A stretch of 64,000 bases of DNA from an uncultured Victivallaceae bacterium. GTDB lineage: Bacteria; Verrucomicrobiota; Lentisphaeria; Victivallales; Victivallaceae. Below the pieces are notes generated by a model. That model saw only the letters and a program-made list of their open reading frames with translations, did not search any database and was not told the DNA's origin. The DNA is taken from positions 1 through 64,000 of the forward strand of contig CALXXL010000007.1 in NCBI GenBank assembly GCA_944392655.1, read 5' to 3'. Below, piece by piece: positions 2,285 through 54,784 of this stretch. Each line of letters starts with the position of its first letter. Position 1 is the first letter of the stretch. The position numbers and the translations under genes are program-made.

Positions 2285-2400
2285 ATCACTGATTATACAT
2301 ATTTAATGCTTTATTAGACGTTATTGGTAAGGCACGGACACAGATAAGTTTTTTTAAGTTTTTATATAAATAATTGTCCTTAAGAAAGAAGGGTCAACAG

Positions 2401-5400
2401 ATGAACGAGTATATTATTAGCGAGAGAAATAACGGGCATATTGTCATGGACAATTCTGTCAATTTGATATTTATGTCAGTTGCGGATAACCTTGAGAGCG
2501 GCGGCCGTTGGATCAAAACCGAAAAGAACTATTTCATCGGGGTGGGAACTGCACCTGATTATGAGATGATTGAAACCAGTTCTGCCAATGATGAGTTCGG
2601 TGCGACGGTGACGCTCGGCGGTAATTATCTTGATGATGATTTAGAGGAAAAGGGGAATCTCGTTTATCACGGCGAAAATATTCAGGATGAAGTGGCAGCC
2701 GTTAGATTCAACGGTAGTGGCAATGTTTACTTTACCGCGCAGACCGGCGCTACTACCGACGCCAAAGATAGCGATATACTTGTTGTAGTTACCAATAAAT
2801 ATGTCAGTCCCGATTCTGAAGGCGGCTCCGGGGAATCTGTTGCCGACGCAAGTTATATCAACGCCAGTCAGAATGTAAGCGCTTCTGCTTTCAGGGCGCT
2901 CAAGACTATGAATGTAGGCGGGAATCTTTCCGGCCAACTGAAAGTTAGCAGTATCGGTAACGATTTTGTCAGCTATACTGTGGAAAGCGGCGACAGCTCC
3001 AGCAAGGTACTGATGACCAGCGGTCATGTAATTAATGTAACCTCCTTGAAAGGTGGAGAAGTTACGGTTCAGAACAATTCCGATGCAGTAATTGAAGTAA
3101 GTGCCAATGCGGCGATAACCCACAAGGGCGATGAAGGGGCAGCTGGAACAGTGAGCAATAACCGGATTGTTGCTGCCGGTCTGTGGAGTTTTGGTTTTTC
3201 CATCAATAATGATGCTCCGGAAAATTATGTCGGATATGAGGATGAAAAAGATATCCCCAGCTCAATTACTATTAAAGGTTATCTTGGTGGAAAGATCACG
3301 GTTGTAAACGGAGCCTTGGCTGAAGAGTCCGGTGAATCAGGTGATGGCGCAGTTACACCAGGACCAGGGCCGATAGAAGGAGAGGAATCTGAAACTGCGG
3401 AAAGTGCAGGTCAGAATCTGTTTATCGCCAATGCTGCTAATAATACCGATCAGCTCGGCACTCAGATGACTGTTACAGGAAATACTGTGGGCGCCTATGG
3501 TTTGCTGGCCGATGATAATACCGGAGTAACCGAAGAGATCATAGACAGCGAGGGTGAAAGTAGCGAAATAGAATCTATGTCCAGAATTAATCTCGGCGGT
3601 TTTACCGGAGAGATAGAGGTTTCTTCAATCGGTAATACTTTCTCTGCAATTGTGGCTGGAGGTGACGAAAATGCCACTACCAGTATTACCAACAATACGG
3701 TTGCCGCGGCTGGTATGAAGGCCAATCAGATTAATATTGATAAAAAATTTACCGGGACTATAACGGTTGAGTCCAGTAAAAATACCTTTACAACGGAAAT
3801 GTCCGCTCCGGAGGCTGATAACAATGTCGTTACCGATAACCTGGTTGAAGTAATCGGATTGGACGTTGTTTCCAAGGATGGAGTTGAAGGTGCAGGAACC
3901 TTGAATTCTGCAAGCTCAATGGCCGGGAGTATAAATATCACCAGTTACGATAATACCAATGATACCTACTATGACGGAATTAACGGTTATAAATGGAATG
4001 TGGTTGGCATCCGTGCTGATAAGATTGACGTAAAAGGCGATTTGGGAACCGATATAAGTGTATTGACCGGACGCTCAAACGGCTATCATGGAGAGGGAAT
4101 GGTTGCCGGTATCTATGTGGATAATATTTCAGCAGATTTTATCAGTAGTGATATCACTATAGTGGCTGATGAGCTGGAACGTCCGCTCCGGGTTGTAGGT
4201 ATTTTTGTTGAAAACGGCTTTGACAATGGTATAACCTATGGAGATAACCGGAAGGATACTTTTGATTTTACAGGCAATCTTATCATGCAGGATAACGAAC
4301 TGGAAGGTAAGAGTAATGCCATTGTCGCTGGCATGATGGGATTTAAAGATGGCGTGAATCTGCGCGTCTCCGGTACGATTTTGGCTGTCGGACCATACGG
4401 CGCCGCGACGACATATTCTATTGTGGCTGACAGAATTAATGAGGATCTTTCCACTACCCGTTATGGAACAGATGACTATGTTGAATTGGCCGCCGGTTCG
4501 CTGTGTTGTGGAAGCATTGAGCTTTCCAACGGCTCTAATACTGTCGTTATTGACAGTAACTCTAAGTTTGCCGGAACCATGACAGCGAATTTGGGTGAAC
4601 TTTCAGTGGAATTCAAGCTGAACGAACACGCCATGGCTTATGTGGAAGATATTGAATATGATTTTGATATTGATTGGCCGGCGGATTGCATTGTTTACAC
4701 TTCGGATAACTATGGCGCCGCATGGCTCGCCAGTACCACCAATATCACTGTCGATATGAATGATGCTGAAGCCGGCGAAAGATATCACCTCTTCCGTATC
4801 GAAGATATGCGGAACGAAGACTGGCAGAAACGCAAGATCGCTATCACATATCAGGGACATACGGCGGAAATAATGGTTGGCGAGGAGTTCTCCAATGAAT
4901 ATTTCTCTGTTACCAGCGAAATCATTTACAACGAAGAATCTGGAATCGGCGATATCTTCTTTATGGTGGAAGAGCTCAATGGCAACCAGTTTGCCGCGCC
5001 GGTCGTCAGTAGCGATGTTGTTTATGACGATGAGGAAGAAACGATTACTCTCAGCTGGAAGTCAACCAACCCGAGCAGCAAGATCGAGGTCTTTGAACTC
5101 GAATACCGTATTGACGACGGTAATTCTGTCGTGGTTTACATTGATGGAGACGAATCCGAATATGAATTCAAGAACCTGATGGCCGGACAGACCGTTGAAT
5201 GGCGCGTCCGTGAACATTTGGTGGACAAAGATCTCTATGTCAGCGATTGGTCGGAAGAAACATCTTTCACCGTTAAGCCGGAAGATACGAAATTTGAAAA
5301 TGTCGGCAGCGGACAGTACGACAACAACGCCGATAAAGGCGCGGTTACACCGACTGCTACATTGACATGGGCAACTGCGGAATGCGAAGCCGGTGTGGCA

Positions 5401-8400
5401 TATTATGAACTGCGCTATTATCAGGGGGCGGATTCGTCCGCTCCGGATTGGGATTCGGTTGAATATAAGACCAAGGTGGTTTCCGGGAATATGTGCATTG
5501 TTTCTGGCCTGACCAATATGTCTTATGTTCATTGGCAGATTCGCGCAGTGGATAACAATGGCCTTGCCTCCGATTGGTCGGATGGGCAGACACTGCGTGT
5601 ATATGCCGGCGATACTCGCGCTCCGGAATTCGATACCAGTTCAGTCCGCAGTATTATCACATTTGACCCGACTGCTCCGGAAAATCAGATGATGCAGATT
5701 ACCGTATCCTGGGATCCGGCAGAAGATGTGGATATGAAGTCAGGACTTGCCGGATATGATATCAGCTACCGTCTGGTTAAGGGCGAAGACAGTTATGGTG
5801 AGTGGTTTACTGTCCGCGTTGGAGCGGATGAAACCAGCCTTAAACTTAATCTGGCCAATGGTGTTTATGAGTGGAAGATCAGCGCCAGCGACTATGCCGG
5901 TAACCGTACAGAAGAATTTTATGGAACTAACTGGGCGGGCGACTTTATGGCTCCGGAATTCGTTGATGGAGAAGCCAACCTTACTGTTGATGTTCTTAAT
6001 ACATCCAACAATAATAATGAAATTAAACTCTCCTGGAATCCGGCAGAAGATACCGATGGCGGCATAGGTAATATTTTCCAATCCGGCCTGAAAGAGTATG
6101 TTCTCTATTACAAAGCTGAAGGTGCTGACGATTCAACCGCGAAAAAGATTAAAATCAACGCTGATCAGACCAGCTATATCTTTAGCAGTAAAGATGCCAA
6201 ACTGACCGATGGTAAGTATGAATGGTGGATCGTAGCAACTGATAATGCTAAAAACGAAATCGTTACCGACAAGAGTACTTTCTCTGTAGATACGAAATCT
6301 CCTACTGGCGGATTCACCGGTATCAGCGATGTAAAACCGACAATCAGCGTAAATTGGGAAGAGGTTGAAGGTACTGATCCGGTTACCGGTGAAACGATTG
6401 TTACATCATATACTGCGACCAATATCAGTATCAAATTTGATATTCAAAGTGAATTTACCGATGCGAATGATATCTACTTCATCATTCAGTTCTCCGGTAA
6501 TGATGAATTCACCGATGTATCTGAATATACGTTCGCACGCAATACAGAAAGTAATATAACAACTGTAACGTTCAATGATTCATTTGAACTCGGTGCCGGC
6601 GGTATTGCCAAATATGATAAAATCTACTACCGTATTCAGGCGGTTGACTCTCTCGGCAACCGTAATGCTACTTGGGCTATGAGCGGTAATTACTTCCAGT
6701 TGATCGATGAGGCAACCGGACGTCGGATTACTGATACTACGGCTCCCACCAAGGTTACAGATGTGGAATACAAGCGCAACGGCAGCGATTTGACAGTCAG
6801 CTGGGATGGAGCAACGGATACATTCGGTGTAAGATATTATGATATCTACCTCAACGGCAAGAAAGTTGCTGAAGGGGTCCGCGATACCAAGTACACGATT
6901 CAGAATGTGGCCGAAGGTAAATATTCACTGCAGGTACAGGCTGTTGACTGGGCTGGCCATCGCTCGGAAAACTCCACTGGTGTTAACGTAATTATGGACG
7001 TAACGGCACCGGAATTCAATGTGAACAGTGTCTCCTCTTCCGTTGTTGGTAAAGATGCATGCGTTACATGGGAAAAAGCAGAAGATAATTATGACTTCGG
7101 TTATTATGAAATCCGCTACTCCAGCTGGGATGCTGTGGCCGGCGGTTTCACCGCCTGGATCTCTACGAAAGTATATGATCAGAAACAGACTGAATTCTGG
7201 TTCAGCAATTGGAGCAATGGTCAGACTATCTATCAGGTGCGCGCCGTCGACGCGGCAGGAAATGCCAGCGAATGGAGTTCAGCTGACAATTCATTTGTAA
7301 TTGATACTGCCAGCGATGCCGGCGATACCATGACTAAGGCTATGACACTGGAATGGGGACAGGATATGACCAATACTATTGGTCGCGGTGATACTGCTGA
7401 CTTCTACAAGTTCGCAATGTCTTCGTCCGGTGAAGTCACCATTACCATCAGCGATTTGAAAGCGGTTGGCAGTTCCGGCAGTGGTTCTGTCAAAGTAACG
7501 ATCTATGATGCTTATGGCAAGTCGCTCAAGAGTTTCTCGGTTTCAGGCAGCAATCCGAAGAGCTACTCTGTGCTGGTGGAAAAACTCGGAACCGGATATT
7601 GCTATGTCGGTATTACTCCGAGCAGTTCTGACAAGGTTTCCGAATATGTTATCGAAGGTAATGTAGATTACTTCGAACCTGCCACCAGCAACAGCAGTTT
7701 TGCCAGCGCAGAAGTCGTAACACTCAACCCGATGGGAGGTGCTGAATTTACCGGGTGGGTCGGATTCGGTGATGCGGTCGACTACTATAAGCTTGATGCC
7801 GCTGTGGCCGGTTCCATGAATCTTTCCATCTCCGGATTGGAAGGCAAAGTAACCATTACAGTTTATGACAACAATAAGAAGAAGATCAAGAGTGTCTCGG
7901 TAAGTGCCGATAAAGAAAATGTAATGACTGATGTTCTGGTTCCGGTAGGTTCATATATCACCATTACTTCCGGAGATAACGGCAAAGGTAAGGAAAATAC
8001 CGGTTATACCGTGATCGTAAATGACAATTACTTCCAGCCGGCTACGCCGAATGATGATTTCAGCAGCGCAGCAGTTATTGCACTGGATGAAAACGGTTAT
8101 GGCAAGACCACTGGCTGGGTTGGTTACGGCGATGCGGTAGATTATTACAAGCTCGGTTCTGCCGCCGCTGGTACGCTCGATCTTTCTATAAGCGGATTGA
8201 CCGGCAAGGTTACAGTTGCGCTTTATGACGAAAATGGCAAGAAGTTGAAGAGTGTCTCGGTAAGCAAAGATACCGAAAATATCTTTAAAGATGTTTTGAT
8301 CCCGAACGGAGCATACGTTACCGTCACTTCCGGCGATAATGGCAAGGGCAAGGAAAATACTGAGTACGAACTCGTAGTAAAAGATGATTATTTCCCGGCT

Positions 8401-10557
8401 GCTACTCCGAACGATGATTTTGACAGCGCTAAGAAAATTGAGATCGCTGAAGACGGTTCTCTGGTATTCTCCGACTGGGTTGGTTATGGCGATGCAACCG
8501 ATGTTTATCTGATCGATGCAGCTAATGCCGGAATGTTGGATTACCTTAAGATCAGTCACCTGGAAGGCAGTGTGAAAGTAGAAGTATATGACCTGAACGG
8601 TAAGAAACTCAAGAGTGTCAGCGTCAAGAATGATGGTAATATTCTTGATGAAATTCTGGTGCCGGGTGACTTCTATATCACGGTTACCTCCGGCGATAAC
8701 GGCAAGGGCAAACAGAATACCGGTTATGAAATTGTTGGCGGCGTTACCTACTTCCCGGAACCTACCGACAACAATACCATTGCAACCGCAGATACTGTGA
8801 CTTTGGATGAAAACGGTTTCGGTACGATTACCGGTTGGGTCGGTTATGGCGATGCGGTCAACTACTATAAACTCGACACCGCGGCGGCCGGTACTCTCAA
8901 TCTCTCCGTTTCCGGACTTGAAGGCAAGGTTAATGTGGTGCTTTATGATGCAGATGGCAAGAAGCTCAAGAGCGTTTCTGTAAGCAAAGACAGCACCAAT
9001 ATCTTCAAGGATGTTCTGGTTCCGAATGGCGCGTATATTTCCGTTACTTCCGGCGATAATGGCAAAGGTAAGGAAAATACTAACTTCACGCTTACGGTGG
9101 ATGATACCTACTTCCAGCCGGCTTCTCCGAACGTTGATTTTGAAACCGCACAGCTGGTTGCGTTGGATGAAAACGGAGCTGGAATGTTTGTCGGTTGGGT
9201 TGGCTATGGTGATGCAGTTGACTATTATAAACTTGATACGGCAGCAGCAGGTATTCTGAATCTTTCAGTCTCCGGTTTGGAAGGTAAAGTTACTGTTACG
9301 TTATATGATATCGACGGCAAGAAACTCAAGAGCGTCTCAGTAAGTAAGGATACCGAAAACATCTTCAAGGATATTCTGGTGCCAAACGGTGCTTATGTTA
9401 CAGTTGCATCCGGTGACAACGGCAAGGGCAAGGAAAATACCTCCTATGTCATTTCTGTGAATGACAGCTATTTCCCGGCTGCGACTGACAATAATACAAT
9501 TGCCACCGCTACTGCAGTTGCACTTGGCGAAACAGGTGCTGCAACTCTGGAAGGCTGGGTCGGCTATGGTGATGCGGTTAACTATTACCGCCTGAACGGT
9601 GATGCTCATGCCGGTACGTTGAACGTATCTCTCTCCAGGTTGGACAGCAAGGTAACGGTTGCACTGTATGATGTCAACGGTAAGAAGCTCAAGAGTGTGT
9701 CGGTAAGCAAGGATACGGAAAATATCTTCAAGGATATTCTGGTACCGGGTAATGCAGCATATCTCTCAGTTACTTCCGGCGACAACGGCAAAGGCAAACA
9801 GAATTCTGACTATGTTCTGACGGTTCAGGAAAATTACTTCCCGGCTGCGACTGATAATAACACCTTCAATACTGCTTCGGATGTAACTCTGGTTGATGGT
9901 GCGGCGGTCGAAAAAGGTTGGGTCGGCTATGGTGATGCTTCTGACTTCTATCGTCTGAATATGGGTAACGCAGGATTGCTGGATCTCTCGGTTGCCAATG
10001 TTACAGACAAAGTCTCTGTTGCGGTATATGATGCTCAGGGTAAGAAATTGAAGAGCTTCAGTGTTAACAGTGGCGATAAATTGCTGTTGGATGACTATTT
10101 GCTGACCTCTGGTGTAAGTTACATCTCTGTGACCTCCGGCGATAACGGAAAAGGTAAGAACAACAGTTCGTACGAACTCATTATCGGCGCAGAAGTCTTC
10201 CCGGCAGCCAGCGATAATAATTCTATGGCCAGCGCGTTCGCCTTTGAATTCGATGAAGCTGGAAAAGCTACGGTTACTGACTGGGTTGGCTATGGTAACG
10301 AAGAAGACTTCTTCAAATTTGAAATCGGTGAAGACGGCGGCAATGTTGCATTGGATCTGAAATTGGATGATGAATCACTGCGGATTGGCAATGAAGTACT
10401 CTTCTCGCTCTATAATGAAGAAGGCAAGACTCTGCTCAATATTAAGAATGGTGTTATGCAGGATTCTCTGGCCGCCGGAACCTACTACGTTTCAGTGGAA
10501 GTCAAGGACGAAAAGAAGCACAATACCTCTTACAGCCTCGGAGTTACATTGGCATAA
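2401..10557 (+). CDS. Giant fibronectin-III / PPC-repeat adhesin-like protein
   Basis: A 2718-residue acidic, Asn/Ser/Thr/Gly-rich protein, probably a cell-surface or secreted adhesin-like protein (inferred from domains). ATG 2401 is chosen over a TTG at 2374 because AAGAAGGG stands 7 nt upstream of it. Residues about 1-860 are beta-rich, with repeated phrases such as EVSSIGNTF and SNNRIVAAG, resembling an autotransporter/AIDA-type passenger. Residues about 865-1630 hold seven fibronectin-III-like modules, each with a W-x-x-A/E-E-D-type strand and several opening with APEF. From about 1640 to the end are nine pre-peptidase C-terminal (PPC)-like modules. The middle seven share WVG-x-GDA and SGDNGKGK. 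I see no N-terminal signal peptide, lipobox, membrane helix, C-terminal beta-barrel, sortase motif or type IX sorting domain, so the export route is unknown. It is transcribed alone from the promoter at 2256 to the terminator at 10574. Confidence 0.85.
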   Translation: MNEYIISERNNGHIVMDNSVNLIFMSVADNLESGGRWIKTEKNYFIGVGTAPDYEMIETSSANDEFGATVTLGGNYLDDDLEEKGNLVYHGENIQDEVAAVRFNGSGNVYFTAQTGATTDAKDSDILVVVTNKYVSPDSEGGSGESVADASYINASQNVSASAFRALKTMNVGGNLSGQLKVSSIGNDFVSYTVESGDSSSKVLMTSGHVINVTSLKGGEVTVQNNSDAVIEVSANAAITHKGDEGAAGTVSNNRIVAAGLWSFGFSINNDAPENYVGYEDEKDIPSSITIKGYLGGKITVVNGALAEESGESGDGAVTPGPGPIEGEESETAESAGQNLFIANAANNTDQLGTQMTVTGNTVGAYGLLADDNTGVTEEIIDSEGESSEIESMSRINLGGFTGEIEVSSIGNTFSAIVAGGDENATTSITNNTVAAAGMKANQINIDKKFTGTITVESSKNTFTTEMSAPEADNNVVTDNLVEVIGLDVVSKDGVEGAGTLNSASSMAGSINITSYDNTNDTYYDGINGYKWNVVGIRADKIDVKGDLGTDISVLTGRSNGYHGEGMVAGIYVDNISADFISSDITIVADELERPLRVVGIFVENGFDNGITYGDNRKDTFDFTGNLIMQDNELEGKSNAIVAGMMGFKDGVNLRVSGTILAVGPYGAATTYSIVADRINEDLSTTRYGTDDYVELAAGSLCCGSIELSNGSNTVVIDSNSKFAGTMTANLGELSVEFKLNEHAMAYVEDIEYDFDIDWPADCIVYTSDNYGAAWLASTTNITVDMNDAEAGERYHLFRIEDMRNEDWQKRKIAITYQGHTAEIMVGEEFSNEYFSVTSEIIYNEESGIGDIFFMVEELNGNQFAAPVVSSDVVYDDEEETITLSWKSTNPSSKIEVFELEYRIDDGNSVVVYIDGDESEYEFKNLMAGQTVEWRVREHLVDKDLYVSDWSEETSFTVKPEDTKFENVGSGQYDNNADKGAVTPTATLTWATAECEAGVAYYELRYYQGADSSAPDWDSVEYKTKVVSGNMCIVSGLTNMSYVHWQIRAVDNNGLASDWSDGQTLRVYAGDTRAPEFDTSSVRSIITFDPTAPENQMMQITVSWDPAEDVDMKSGLAGYDISYRLVKGEDSYGEWFTVRVGADETSLKLNLANGVYEWKISASDYAGNRTEEFYGTNWAGDFMAPEFVDGEANLTVDVLNTSNNNNEIKLSWNPAEDTDGGIGNIFQSGLKEYVLYYKAEGADDSTAKKIKINADQTSYIFSSKDAKLTDGKYEWWIVATDNAKNEIVTDKSTFSVDTKSPTGGFTGISDVKPTISVNWEEVEGTDPVTGETIVTSYTATNISIKFDIQSEFTDANDIYFIIQFSGNDEFTDVSEYTFARNTESNITTVTFNDSFELGAGGIAKYDKIYYRIQAVDSLGNRNATWAMSGNYFQLIDEATGRRITDTTAPTKVTDVEYKRNGSDLTVSWDGATDTFGVRYYDIYLNGKKVAEGVRDTKYTIQNVAEGKYSLQVQAVDWAGHRSENSTGVNVIMDVTAPEFNVNSVSSSVVGKDACVTWEKAEDNYDFGYYEIRYSSWDAVAGGFTAWISTKVYDQKQTEFWFSNWSNGQTIYQVRAVDAAGNASEWSSADNSFVIDTASDAGDTMTKAMTLEWGQDMTNTIGRGDTADFYKFAMSSSGEVTITISDLKAVGSSGSGSVKVTIYDAYGKSLKSFSVSGSNPKSYSVLVEKLGTGYCYVGITPSSSDKVSEYVIEGNVDYFEPATSNSSFASAEVVTLNPMGGAEFTGWVGFGDAVDYYKLDAAVAGSMNLSISGLEGKVTITVYDNNKKKIKSVSVSADKENVMTDVLVPVGSYITITSGDNGKGKENTGYTVIVNDNYFQPATPNDDFSSAAVIALDENGYGKTTGWVGYGDAVDYYKLGSAAAGTLDLSISGLTGKVTVALYDENGKKLKSVSVSKDTENIFKDVLIPNGAYVTVTSGDNGKGKENTEYELVVKDDYFPAATPNDDFDSAKKIEIAEDGSLVFSDWVGYGDATDVYLIDAANAGMLDYLKISHLEGSVKVEVYDLNGKKLKSVSVKNDGNILDEILVPGDFYITVTSGDNGKGKQNTGYEIVGGVTYFPEPTDNNTIATADTVTLDENGFGTITGWVGYGDAVNYYKLDTAAAGTLNLSVSGLEGKVNVVLYDADGKKLKSVSVSKDSTNIFKDVLVPNGAYISVTSGDNGKGKENTNFTLTVDDTYFQPASPNVDFETAQLVALDENGAGMFVGWVGYGDAVDYYKLDTAAAGILNLSVSGLEGKVTVTLYDIDGKKLKSVSVSKDTENIFKDILVPNGAYVTVASGDNGKGKENTSYVISVNDSYFPAATDNNTIATATAVALGETGAATLEGWVGYGDAVNYYRLNGDAHAGTLNVSLSRLDSKVTVALYDVNGKKLKSVSVSKDTENIFKDILVPGNAAYLSVTSGDNGKGKQNSDYVLTVQENYFPAATDNNTFNTASDVTLVDGAAVEKGWVGYGDASDFYRLNMGNAGLLDLSVANVTDKVSVAVYDAQGKKLKSFSVNSGDKLLLDDYLLTSGVSYISVTSGDNGKGKNNSSYELIIGAEVFPAASDNNSMASAFAFEFDEAGKATVTDWVGYGNEEDFFKFEIGEDGGNVALDLKLDDESLRIGNEVLFSLYNEEGKTLLNIKNGVMQDSLAAGTYYVSVEVKDEKKHNTSYSLGVTLA
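4993..7300 (+). repeat. Seven fibronectin-III-like modules (within giant CDS)
   Basis: Seven divergent modules of about 90-120 codons each. Cues are the recurring linker APEF or SP/AP-x-F (near 5620, 5950, 6300, 6745 and 7005), a core such as VSWDPAED or LSWNPAED, and a closing phrase of the type YEWKISASDYAGN. Similarity is at protein level only; the DNA is not a clean tandem repeat. Confidence 0.75.
7669..10554 (+). repeat. Eight tandem ~360-bp PPC-domain repeats (within giant CDS)
   Basis: Units begin at 7669, 8029, 8389, 8749, 9109, 9469, 9835 and 10195, so the period is 360 bp (120 codons) except one of 366 bp. Each opens with YF-x-PAT/S-x-N-x, then GWVGYGDA, then KKLKSVSVSKD, and closes with SGDNGKGK in units 1-7. 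A ninth, diverged copy precedes them at about 7315. The same peptides are written with different synonymous codons in different units. This points to older duplication kept by selection rather than a fresh DNA expansion. Confidence 0.9.
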
Positions 10558-51617: not shown

Positions 51618-53654
51618 TCAGGAAAACTGCGTATCATGGAGTTTACGGTAAATTCCGTTGAGTTCCAACAATTCCTGATGAGTTCCGGCTTCTGCAATTT
51701 TCCCATGCTTTAATACCAGAATAAGATCCGCCTGTTGGATTGTGCTAAGACGGTGCGCGATTGCAAATACGGTACGGTTCGTCATTACCCGGTTAAGAGC
51801 ATCCTGCACCAAACGCTCAGTTACAGTATCTAACGCACTGGTGGCTTCATCCAAAATAAGAATTGGTGGATTTTTTAAGATTGCCCGGGCTATCGCCACC
51901 CGCTGTTTTTCACCGCCGGAAAGTTTGAACCCTTTTTCGCCGACTTCAGTATTATATCCATCCGGATGGCTACCGTCTACGATAAATTGATGGGCGTTGG
52001 CTTGTGTAGCTGCTTCTATAATCTGATCCATAGTGGCATCCGGGCATCCGTAGGCAATATTGTTGGCAATTGTGTCGTTAAACAGGATAGCATCTTGATT
52101 GACAATGCCGATATGACGCCGGATACTCTTCATGGTATAATCGCGTACATCAACTCCGTCTATCGATACACTGCCGGATTCAACATCATAGAAACGGGCA
52201 ATCAGATTGGCTATGGTTGATTTACCACTGCCGGTTTCCCCAACTACCGCAACCATTTGACCTTTCCTGATATCAAATGTAATATCACTTAAAATACGAT
52301 GTTCGCCATAAGAAAAACAAACATTGTTAAATGATATACGATCTTTAAAATCAGTAAGTTCAATTGCATCCGGCTTGACCGGCAATGCGGTATGAGTGTC
52401 CAACAGGTCAAAATAACGGTCTGCAGCTGCCATACTTCTGGAAATAGTCGGCAGAACTTTTGATAGGTTCTTTATCGGCTCATAGGCCAGAATCGCCGGT
52501 GCAAGTAGCGCTGCTATCTCGGTTAGAGATACATTCTGGGTATAACTGTATACCCCGAAAATAAGCGTTGCACCTACCGCCACTATCTCCATTAATGGCT
52601 GCATAAGCAACTGTTGGCGCAGTGCTTTTACAATGTATTTGAAATAACGGCGGTTTATAGCCCGGAATTTGGTATCTTCCTGCTCTTCCGTATTGTATGC
52701 TTTTACGACTCTTATACCTGTGAAAACCTCATGCATTCTGCTTGTTACTTCAGCAATTTTTGCAAAAGATGCTTTATATGCTTTCTTTATATGTTTGGAA
52801 AGCATCATTACCGGAAGAACAACCATCGGCATGCCGATAAATAATATTATTGGCAGAATATAATTGTCATTTTGTATGCTGGTAATGATAATGGCCGTGG
52901 CGCAGGCCAGAATCTCAATAGGGCAGCGGGTCAAATCCGCAATTACATCTGAAACACTGCTCTCAATTGCAGCTGTATCATTGGAGCAGCGGCTGATGAG
53001 ATGCCCGACGTCCATCTGTCCGTAAAAGCCAAGAGATTGTCCTAAAAGCGAACTGAAAATTTCGTTACGCATATCTGCCACAACTCTGGCACCCACCCAG
53101 CGGGTGAAAAAACGGTTTAAATAGATGGCCAGATTGCGGATCATCCACATTATCATAAAACAGAAAGCAAACATGGCGAAGATCTGCCATGAAACCCTTT
53201 CGCCACTGCTATAAATCGGAACTGAAACCTCTGTCGGCCAAGTTATTATCAGATTACTGCCATCCACTTTTGCCGGTAGGGAGTATTCACTGATCGTCTT
53301 TTCCACCTGCTTTACCAATGCCGCCATCTGAGGGTCGTCGGCATCCAGCGATGGATTTAGAACTGACTGTACCGCGTGCAGACGCTCCTCTTCACTCCAT
53401 TCAGGATGCAGATTCAGCTCATTCAGTATTTCATTCGCCGATTTCGCTGTTTCATCTGCCGTGGCAGTGGGGTTCTCAACCACCATTACCATGCGCGGTA
53501 TCATCAAGTTGGACATCAGCAATGAGCCTCCGACCGCAAAGCCAGCCAGTATGCCTACCGCCAGTTTGTATTTATACGGTTTTGCATAGCGGATCAGCCG
53601 ACGATAGCTCTGCCGCCGGAAGTTGCCTTCGTTGGAGATGTATTCCGAACCCAT
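51618..53654 (-). CDS. MsbA-like ABC exporter (fused membrane and ATPase domains)
   Basis: A 678-residue half-transporter that forms a homodimer exporting lipid or drug. Six helices come first, with an unusually large insert of roughly 85 residues between helices 1 and 2 (NPTATADETAKS to about SGERVSW), where MsbA has only a short loop. The ATPase domain has VGETGSGKST, LSGGEKQRVAIARA, LILDEATSALD and the H-loop AHRLST. ATG 53654 lies 2 bp after the stop of the DegT-type gene. The pairing with an aminotransferase of the nucleotide-sugar type hints at surface glycolipid export, but this is inference. Confidence 0.88.
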   Translation of the reverse strand: MGSEYISNEGNFRRQSYRRLIRYAKPYKYKLAVGILAGFAVGGSLLMSNLMIPRMVMVVENPTATADETAKSANEILNELNLHPEWSEEERLHAVQSVLNPSLDADDPQMAALVKQVEKTISEYSLPAKVDGSNLIITWPTEVSVPIYSSGERVSWQIFAMFAFCFMIMWMIRNLAIYLNRFFTRWVGARVVADMRNEIFSSLLGQSLGFYGQMDVGHLISRCSNDTAAIESSVSDVIADLTRCPIEILACATAIIITSIQNDNYILPIILFIGMPMVVLPVMMLSKHIKKAYKASFAKIAEVTSRMHEVFTGIRVVKAYNTEEQEDTKFRAINRRYFKYIVKALRQQLLMQPLMEIVAVGATLIFGVYSYTQNVSLTEIAALLAPAILAYEPIKNLSKVLPTISRSMAAADRYFDLLDTHTALPVKPDAIELTDFKDRISFNNVCFSYGEHRILSDITFDIRKGQMVAVVGETGSGKSTIANLIARFYDVESGSVSIDGVDVRDYTMKSIRRHIGIVNQDAILFNDTIANNIAYGCPDATMDQIIEAATQANAHQFIVDGSHPDGYNTEVGEKGFKLSGGEKQRVAIARAILKNPPILILDEATSALDTVTERLVQDALNRVMTNRTVFAIAHRLSTIQQADLILVLKHGKIAEAGTHQELLELNGIYRKLHDTQFS

Positions 53655-53656
53655 AA

Positions 53657-54784
53657 TCAGCAACCGGAAAGGACTTTCTCAAAGCATTCAACAATGTATT
53701 GACGCATTTCCGTGGTGGATTCAGGATAAATCGGCAATGCCAGGATATCTTTGGCTACCGTTTCTGCAACCGGCATATCACCGACTTTACCACCAAGATT
53801 TTTGAAGCAGGCTTGCAGATGCAACGGGAGCGGATAGTAGACCATGCATCCGACACCAAGCTCAGCCATCTGAGCTTTTACTTTATCGCGGTCAGCTCCA
53901 ACAATTCTGATGCAGAACTGATTGTATATGTGACGTACCGGATAATTGGCCAATCCGGGGAGAATTACCCGATCGGCAATCTTGCTCGCGGAAAATAGCT
54001 TGCGATACTCTTCCGCGTTGTGTTGACGGGCTTCGGTCCAACTGTCCAGATGTGGCAGTTTGATAGCCAGAATTGCTGCCTGGAGCGCGTCTAAACGGAA
54101 ATTGCCGCCAACTTCTTCATGAATATAGGTTGATCCCTGGCCATGATTGCGGAGTCTCTTTAAATGTTTGCCGCGTTCTTCGCTGTTGGTTGTTACTGCT
54201 CCGCCGTCACCAAATCCACCGAGATTTTTCGTCGGGAAAAAGCTGAATGCACCGTAATCGCCAATGCTGCCGGCACGCTGGCCATTATATTCTGCTCCGA
54301 TTGACTGGCAGGCATCTTCAATTACAATCAGGTTATGACTCTTGGCAATATCCATTATCTTGCCCATATCGGCGCACTGTCCAAAAAGATGAACCGGAAT
54401 AACCGCTTTGGTTTTCGGGGTTATTTTGCGTTCAAAATCAGCAGGATCCAGATTGAAGGTTACCGGATCAATGTCTGCAAAAACCGGAGTTGCTCCCACT
54501 CTGGCGATTGCGCCTGCTGTGGCAAAGAAAGTAAAGGTCGGTGCGATAACTTCATCGCCTGGCCCGATACCTTCCGCCATGAGAGAGATTATAAGCGCAT
54601 CAGAGCCGGAGGTTACTCCGACTGTGGCCGCAGTATGACAGTAATCGTTCATCATCGCCTCAAAATTTTCGACCTTGGGGCCGAGAATAAAGCGTTGGGA
54701 TTCGCAAACTTCAGCTATCTCTTTTAGAATTTCATCTTTCAGACTGTTGAACTGGGGGCGCAAGTCGAGTATGGATATTTGCAT
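53657..54784 (-). CDS. DegT/DnrJ/EryC1/StrS-family PLP aminotransferase
   Basis: A 375-residue sugar aminotransferase that makes amino-sugars for lipopolysaccharide, glycans or glycolipids. K186 in SFFPTKNLGG is the pyridoxal-phosphate lysine. DACQSIGA (the Asp contacting PLP) and VTSGSDAL are also typical. A close match in style is WlbE/WbpE or ArnB-like UDP-sugar aminotransferases. The substrate is not readable. It is followed 2 bp later by the ABC exporter on the same strand. Confidence 0.92.
   Translation of the reverse strand: MQISILDLRPQFNSLKDEILKEIAEVCESQRFILGPKVENFEAMMNDYCHTAATVGVTSGSDALIISLMAEGIGPGDEVIAPTFTFFATAGAIARVGATPVFADIDPVTFNLDPADFERKITPKTKAVIPVHLFGQCADMGKIMDIAKSHNLIVIEDACQSIGAEYNGQRAGSIGDYGAFSFFPTKNLGGFGDGGAVTTNSEERGKHLKRLRNHGQGSTYIHEEVGGNFRLDALQAAILAIKLPHLDSWTEARQHNAEEYRKLFSASKIADRVILPGLANYPVRHIYNQFCIRIVGADRDKVKAQMAELGVGCMVYYPLPLHLQACFKNLGGKVGDMPVAETVAKDILALPIYPESTTEMRQYIVECFEKVLSGC

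Follow-up and report, generated by a model that had tools for sequence, protein, structure and literature searches.

The giant gene in the window

The window analysed here is a stretch of 64,000 nucleotides (G000:C7:1-64000) from the assembly of an uncultured Victivallaceae bacterium, which amounts to 2.34 Mb and is 95% complete, and the named relatives compared with it were MAGs of Victivallaceae and Victivallales. A giant coding sequence occupies positions 2401-10557 of the plus strand, stop codon included. Its frame is open throughout and encodes 2,718 amino acids. A Shine-Dalgarno-like AGAAGG (2387-2392, plus strand) was recognised from the sequence 8 nt 5′ of the ATG at 2401. The sole earlier in-frame start is a TTG at 2374, which lies immediately 3′ of an in-frame TAA and would add only nine polar residues (LSLRKKGQQ). 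The same-genus relative G001 has MNEYIV at the equivalent position.

The giant gene is solitary amid housekeeping genes, its neighbours encoding a transporter, a DinG-like helicase, a hypothetical protein, TruB-like and NrnA-like proteins, IF2, and NusA. Given these neighbours, export genes local to the giant were rejected. The ABC gene at 51618-53663 was also set aside: no C39-like part was visible by eye, and the adjoining gene is aminotransferase-like, not HlyD. Near the start of the window, at 47-67 (G000:C7:47-67), the palindrome ACCACCGGCTTAGCCGGTGGT was observed. Exact copies number 20 genome-wide and nearly always lie no more than about 150 bp from a contig end; the palindrome probably marks one end of a mobile element present in many copies, at which the assembly breaks.

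Modular architecture of the giant protein

All modules are described on the plus strand. The N-terminal family domain (residues 1-180; 2401-2940) is followed by a beta-rich repeat region (residues 181-850; 2941-4950), which is conserved with G001 and G084. AlphaFold models the N-terminal third as all-beta at low confidence (pLDDT 49.8), and fold comparison of this model gave no significant match. Residues 181-850 possibly form a beta-solenoid. About seven Fn3/Ig-like modules follow (residues 862-1627; 4984-7281). Two stretches passed the Pfam fn3 model; the remaining modules are Ig/Fn3-like matches or calls made by eye. The region also matches PDB 1k85.

The rest of the protein consists of PPC-like modules. 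A model built from the giant's own repeats gave nine matches, while the Pfam PPC model reached only E 0.22 and was not passed. They comprise a first, degenerate module (residues 1628-1750; 7282-7650), seven repeats of about 120 amino acids each (residues 1754-2595; 7660-10185), and a terminal domain (residues 2596-2718, of which 2596-2715 are covered by the match; 10186-10554), which we propose as a type I secretion signal on the basis of its tree position, fold, and linkage to hlyBD. For the terminal module, AlphaFold gave a model with a pLDDT of 81.6, built on repeats of the window itself. It resembles PPC and collagen-binding domains that bacterial collagenases carry (Foldseek E 1.9e-6; TM 0.65/0.74 against 5sv5). 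Thus, the terminal module is predicted to adopt the beta-sandwich fold of these domains. Unlike those PPC domains, the modules here are repeated in tandem or close off signal-less proteins, and do not sit behind a secreted peptidase.

PPC-like modules were also observed in other proteins. The same genome (G000:C14) encodes two large ORFs without signal peptides, L012:8362-12453 (1,363 aa, with seven PPC-like repeats) and L077:7613-12868 (1,751 aa); the last two residues of each are LA. In contrast to the giants, a small single-PPC-like protein on contig C8 (L004:1264-2157) has a signal-peptide-like N-terminus, MRTKILPFLLLAATLTAA. In two relatives (G042:C45 and G054:C10), PPC-like domains lie in open frames of 6,046 and 6,633 aa.

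Absence of a Sec signal and of an anchor

The signal peptide criterion was simple Kyte-Doolittle values with a start-site check, not SignalP. No in-frame start of the giant coding sequence gives a hydrophobic N-terminus. The best 12-residue window in the first 45 residues scores 1.38, compared with 2.2-3.3 in four proteins of the same genome that have signal-peptide-like N-termini. By these measures, a cleavable N-terminal Sec/Tat signal is absent. The best 19-residue window anywhere in the protein is 1.09; therefore, the giant has no membrane anchor. An LPxTG motif is also absent from the protein. The first-pass annotation had described beta-rich repeats with seven Fn3-like and nine PPC-like modules, no visible export signal, and no C-terminal anchor. 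Each of these points agrees with our results, the Fn3 count as about seven. The signal peptide from an earlier start that it named as a refutation was looked for, and the TTG extension described above does not supply one.

The giant is acidic (D+E 15.0%, K+R 7.1%) and contains 7 cysteines in 2,718 residues. It carries no RTX repeats: GGxGxD, and hence the nonapeptide GGxGxDxUx, occurs nowhere in it. Its C-terminal residues, LA, fit the [FLI][VAI] pattern in which RTX type I cargo ends (PMC8861453). However, this end is variable among relatives (IK in G001, IC in G040), and the last 20 residues of the giant are Lys/Glu-rich and differ from typical RTX cargo. A TIGR03661-type (VCA0849-type) signal was not among the matches of the giant up to E 1.

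The terminal domain is a distinct module

A search for related loci with residues 1628-2718 as the query led to Victivallales relatives. Two of the sequences obtained encode proteins already represented in our set: JAQUTL010000014.1 (L128) encodes the same protein as G001:C7, and JAISIP010000079.1 (L129) the same as G084:C106.

A tree was made of 83 PPC-like domains from 14 proteins. All ten domains labelled terminal formed one group apart from the internal repeats; four of the 14 proteins, including that of G019, received no terminal label because their ends were too divergent. The labels required 1 change on the tree, against a mean of 9.6 when shuffled, and the support of the terminal group was moderate (79). 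Most internal repeats clustered by genome on the same tree, which is the pattern that local duplication would give.

The terminal domain is borne by unlike bodies, namely Fn3 giants, an AIDA-repeat protein, and a C10-peptidase protein. No evident signal peptide opens any of the 13 terminal-domain proteins that were complete and were inspected. Where these proteins are linked to hlyBD, their N-termini are unrelated and their terminal domains are of the same kind. By these computations, the terminal PPC-like domain stands out as a conserved module in its own right, which is kept across genera and recurs on different hlyBD-linked proteins.

Exporter genes in the same genome

Contig C4 of the same genome encodes an HlyB-like transporter of 853 aa and, directly after it, an HlyD of 450 aa. 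The best PDB match of the transporter is HlyB (7sgr; E 1.5e-145, residues 143-844); against TIGR01846 it gave E 4.5e-192, which is under the cut-off. The HlyD exceeds the TIGR01843 cut-off. The sole TolC-family gene found, on contig C2, is over the cut-off of PF02321 and under that of TIGR01844 (E 1.8e-37).

In the C39-like domain of the transporter and in 16 related sequences, no Cys occupies the expected catalytic position immediately ahead of the aligned segment. Judged from these sequences, the domain appears to be inactive, as in HlyB. The inactive C39-like domain of HlyB pairs with large cargo having a C-terminal signal (PMC8277102). By profile comparison, the additional N-terminal residues of the transporter, about 140 in number, resemble a second C39-like domain (probability 93.6%, E 2.1e-7). 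This additional domain, with its likeness to C39, is a feature of the HlyB-like transporter of Victivallales (L025:8703-9542 and relatives). The transporter is like E. coli HlyB, which it matches along the entire length, in its inactive C39-like domain and adjacent HlyD adaptor, and unlike it in the added N-terminal residues and in a candidate cargo without RTX repeats.

Linkage of the terminal domain to hlyBD in relatives

The giant gene (C7) and hlyBD (C4) are not neighbours in the genome under study; in several relatives, cargo-like genes and exporter genes are adjacent. In G109, two terminal-domain proteins, one with a C10-peptidase domain and the other with AIDA repeats, are encoded directly 5′ of hlyB-hlyD on a single strand. 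In G040 and G041, which belong to one genus, a giant carrying both the N-terminal family domain and the terminal domain is divergent from hlyB, with gaps of 337 and 240 bp, respectively. In G019, from another family, a 1,911-aa protein with the same architecture as the giant (beta repeats, Fn3-like and PPC-like modules) has its stop 16 bp upstream of hlyB. An N-terminal-family giant lies downstream of hlyBD in G005, its C-terminus falling past the contig end. PPC-like proteins with a short additional tail stand immediately before hlyB in G031, G032, and G004. With two neighbours per operon and about 2,000 genes, we roughly estimate that such adjacency would rarely arise by chance.

The terminal-domain profile matched 56 of the 137 genomes of the order. 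An hlyB-like gene was present in 50 of these 56 genomes, compared with 40 of the other 81 (Fisher p 1.1e-6), and completeness does not exceed 80% in four of the six matching genomes without hlyB. Because the profile picks up internal repeats as well, this count describes the PPC-like family overall. For matches at E 1e-20 or better, hlyB was found in 17/17 genomes compared with 73/120 (p 6e-4). These co-occurrence statistics ignore shared ancestry.

The N-terminal family

The first 180 residues were found again in 17 of the 78 family genomes, none with a hydrophobic segment, and stand at the start of large ORFs wherever the contig permits. Conservation is loose, at 27-34% identity over about 180 residues; beside the MNEYIV of G001, the starts are MATNYIYTF in G005 and MLYEFVT in G007. 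hlyB is present in 16/17 of these genomes against a base of 62/78, and we rejected this co-occurrence as sole evidence because it is too weak. The first-pass annotation had left a choice between a non-classical route and an unrecognised signal at the N-terminus, and had proposed aligning N-termini to look for a conserved MNEY-type start. The N-terminus does recur in relatives, with MNEYI in the same genus, but as a loose domain and not as a short signal. Since conservation is loose and many transporter-linked proteins lack the N-terminal family, a role of the N-terminus as the export signal is not supported. It is the C-terminal domain that accompanies the transporter genes. The absence of a Sec signal stands, and the two choices missed the likeliest answer, type I secretion.

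Possible routes of the giant

Type I secretion is an established route whose substrates carry no N-terminal signal. We conclude that the giant is very likely a protein of the adhesin type, extracellular or on the cell surface, that leaves the cell through an HlyB/HlyD/TolC-type type I secretion system. The giant lacks an ordinary export signal, on this reading, because a type I pump reading its C-terminal domain most likely exports it, and the puzzle of the missing signal is thereby largely explained.

The conserved N-terminus might instead hold a signal for export or retention that goes unrecognised, or might serve as a retention module, as in LapA, alongside type I secretion. Its recurrence, throughout without a hydrophobic segment, would suit this, and the retention of SiiE is governed by its N-terminal part (PMC6272769). 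However, the hlyBD-linked proteins differ in their N-termini and agree in the terminal domain, and LapG (PF06035), on which LapA-type retention would depend, is absent from the genome, whereas a Caulobacter control was positive. We regard these readings together as improbable; the N-terminus may still serve in retention of a non-LapA kind. That the giant is cytoplasmic, or freed by lysis only, would fit the absence of a classical signal or anchor and the position of the gene alone among housekeeping genes. Nevertheless, its recognised modules are of extracellular types, and the distinct domain at its end persists from genus to genus, with linkage to hlyBD, so this is very unlikely.

A match to TIGR04183, the NCBIfam T9SS type A sorting domain, over its cut-off (71 bits, six stretches) could point to a T9SS substrate. 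T9SS cargo requires a Sec signal, which the giant lacks. Moreover, the highest-scoring stretch (2052-2100) belongs to an internal repeat and not to the C-terminus, and the terminal module is predicted to fold like PPC. SprA was found in 0/31 relatives by a weak search in which no positive control matched. Export by T9SS is thus extremely unlikely, and the match is a caution that the T9SS sorting-domain model can hit internal PPC-like repeats.

Proposed type I export and its relation to known systems

In type I export of the giant, the finished chain would carry no N-terminal signal, and the HlyB-like ATPase (G000:C4) would use its C39-like domains to recognise the last PPC-like domain of the chain, uncleaved, in the cytoplasm. 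The unfolded chain would then thread through HlyB and HlyD and on through the TolC-like channel with the C-terminus leading, as by analogy with SiiE, and the modules would fold outside the cell. Because the giant gene and hlyBD lie apart, we infer their pairing in this genome. The terminal domain would act as the secretion signal, and folding outside, surface retention, and an adhesive role would follow export. Perhaps the PPC modules fold in a calcium-dependent manner on the surface.

C39-like-domain transporters are usually paired with RTX cargo. Here, the terminal PPC-like domain may be a portable export tag on unrelated cargo, read by a tandem-C39-like HlyB-like transporter and replacing RTX repeats; we advance this tentatively, as a suggestion whose chances fall slightly short of even.

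The closest comparison is SiiE of Salmonella enterica, also a giant chain of beta-sandwich modules that is Sec-signal-less. SiiE uses an HlyB/HlyD/TolC-type exporter, and its secretion signal is C-terminal, in the last 60 aa (PMC6272769); such an exporter and a C-terminal signal are proposed for the giant. In contrast to the 53 BIg domains of SiiE, the giant has PPC and Fn3 modules, ends in a PPC-like domain, and is encoded away from its putative exporter; the likeness is one of working, not of sequence. With LapA and the RTX adhesins, the giant shares great length, repeats, the lack of a signal, and the proposed type I route, but it differs in having neither RTX repeats nor a TIGR03661-type match, and in a genome without LapG.

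We found no description of type I-exported PPC-domain giants in Victivallales in the open-access literature. The signal-less giants of this order thus gain a concrete, testable export route. The route itself is known for giant adhesins, and what is proposed is a C-terminal tag of a new kind for type I export; the portable tag with the tandem C39-like transporter is the part that specialists would find new.

Other proteins near the exporter genes were also observed. In several genomes (L113, L115, L116, L117, L119, and L122), large proteins downstream of hlyBD start with MK-(D/E)-x-E-x-FKLEDRVLFEAAAAAE, and one of them carries DUF4347. These are possibly a second cargo class with an N-terminal motif. 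In G025, a SecA-like gene (L028:493-3534) adjoins a type I exporter pair; an association of SecA with type I systems has been described (PMC4452313).
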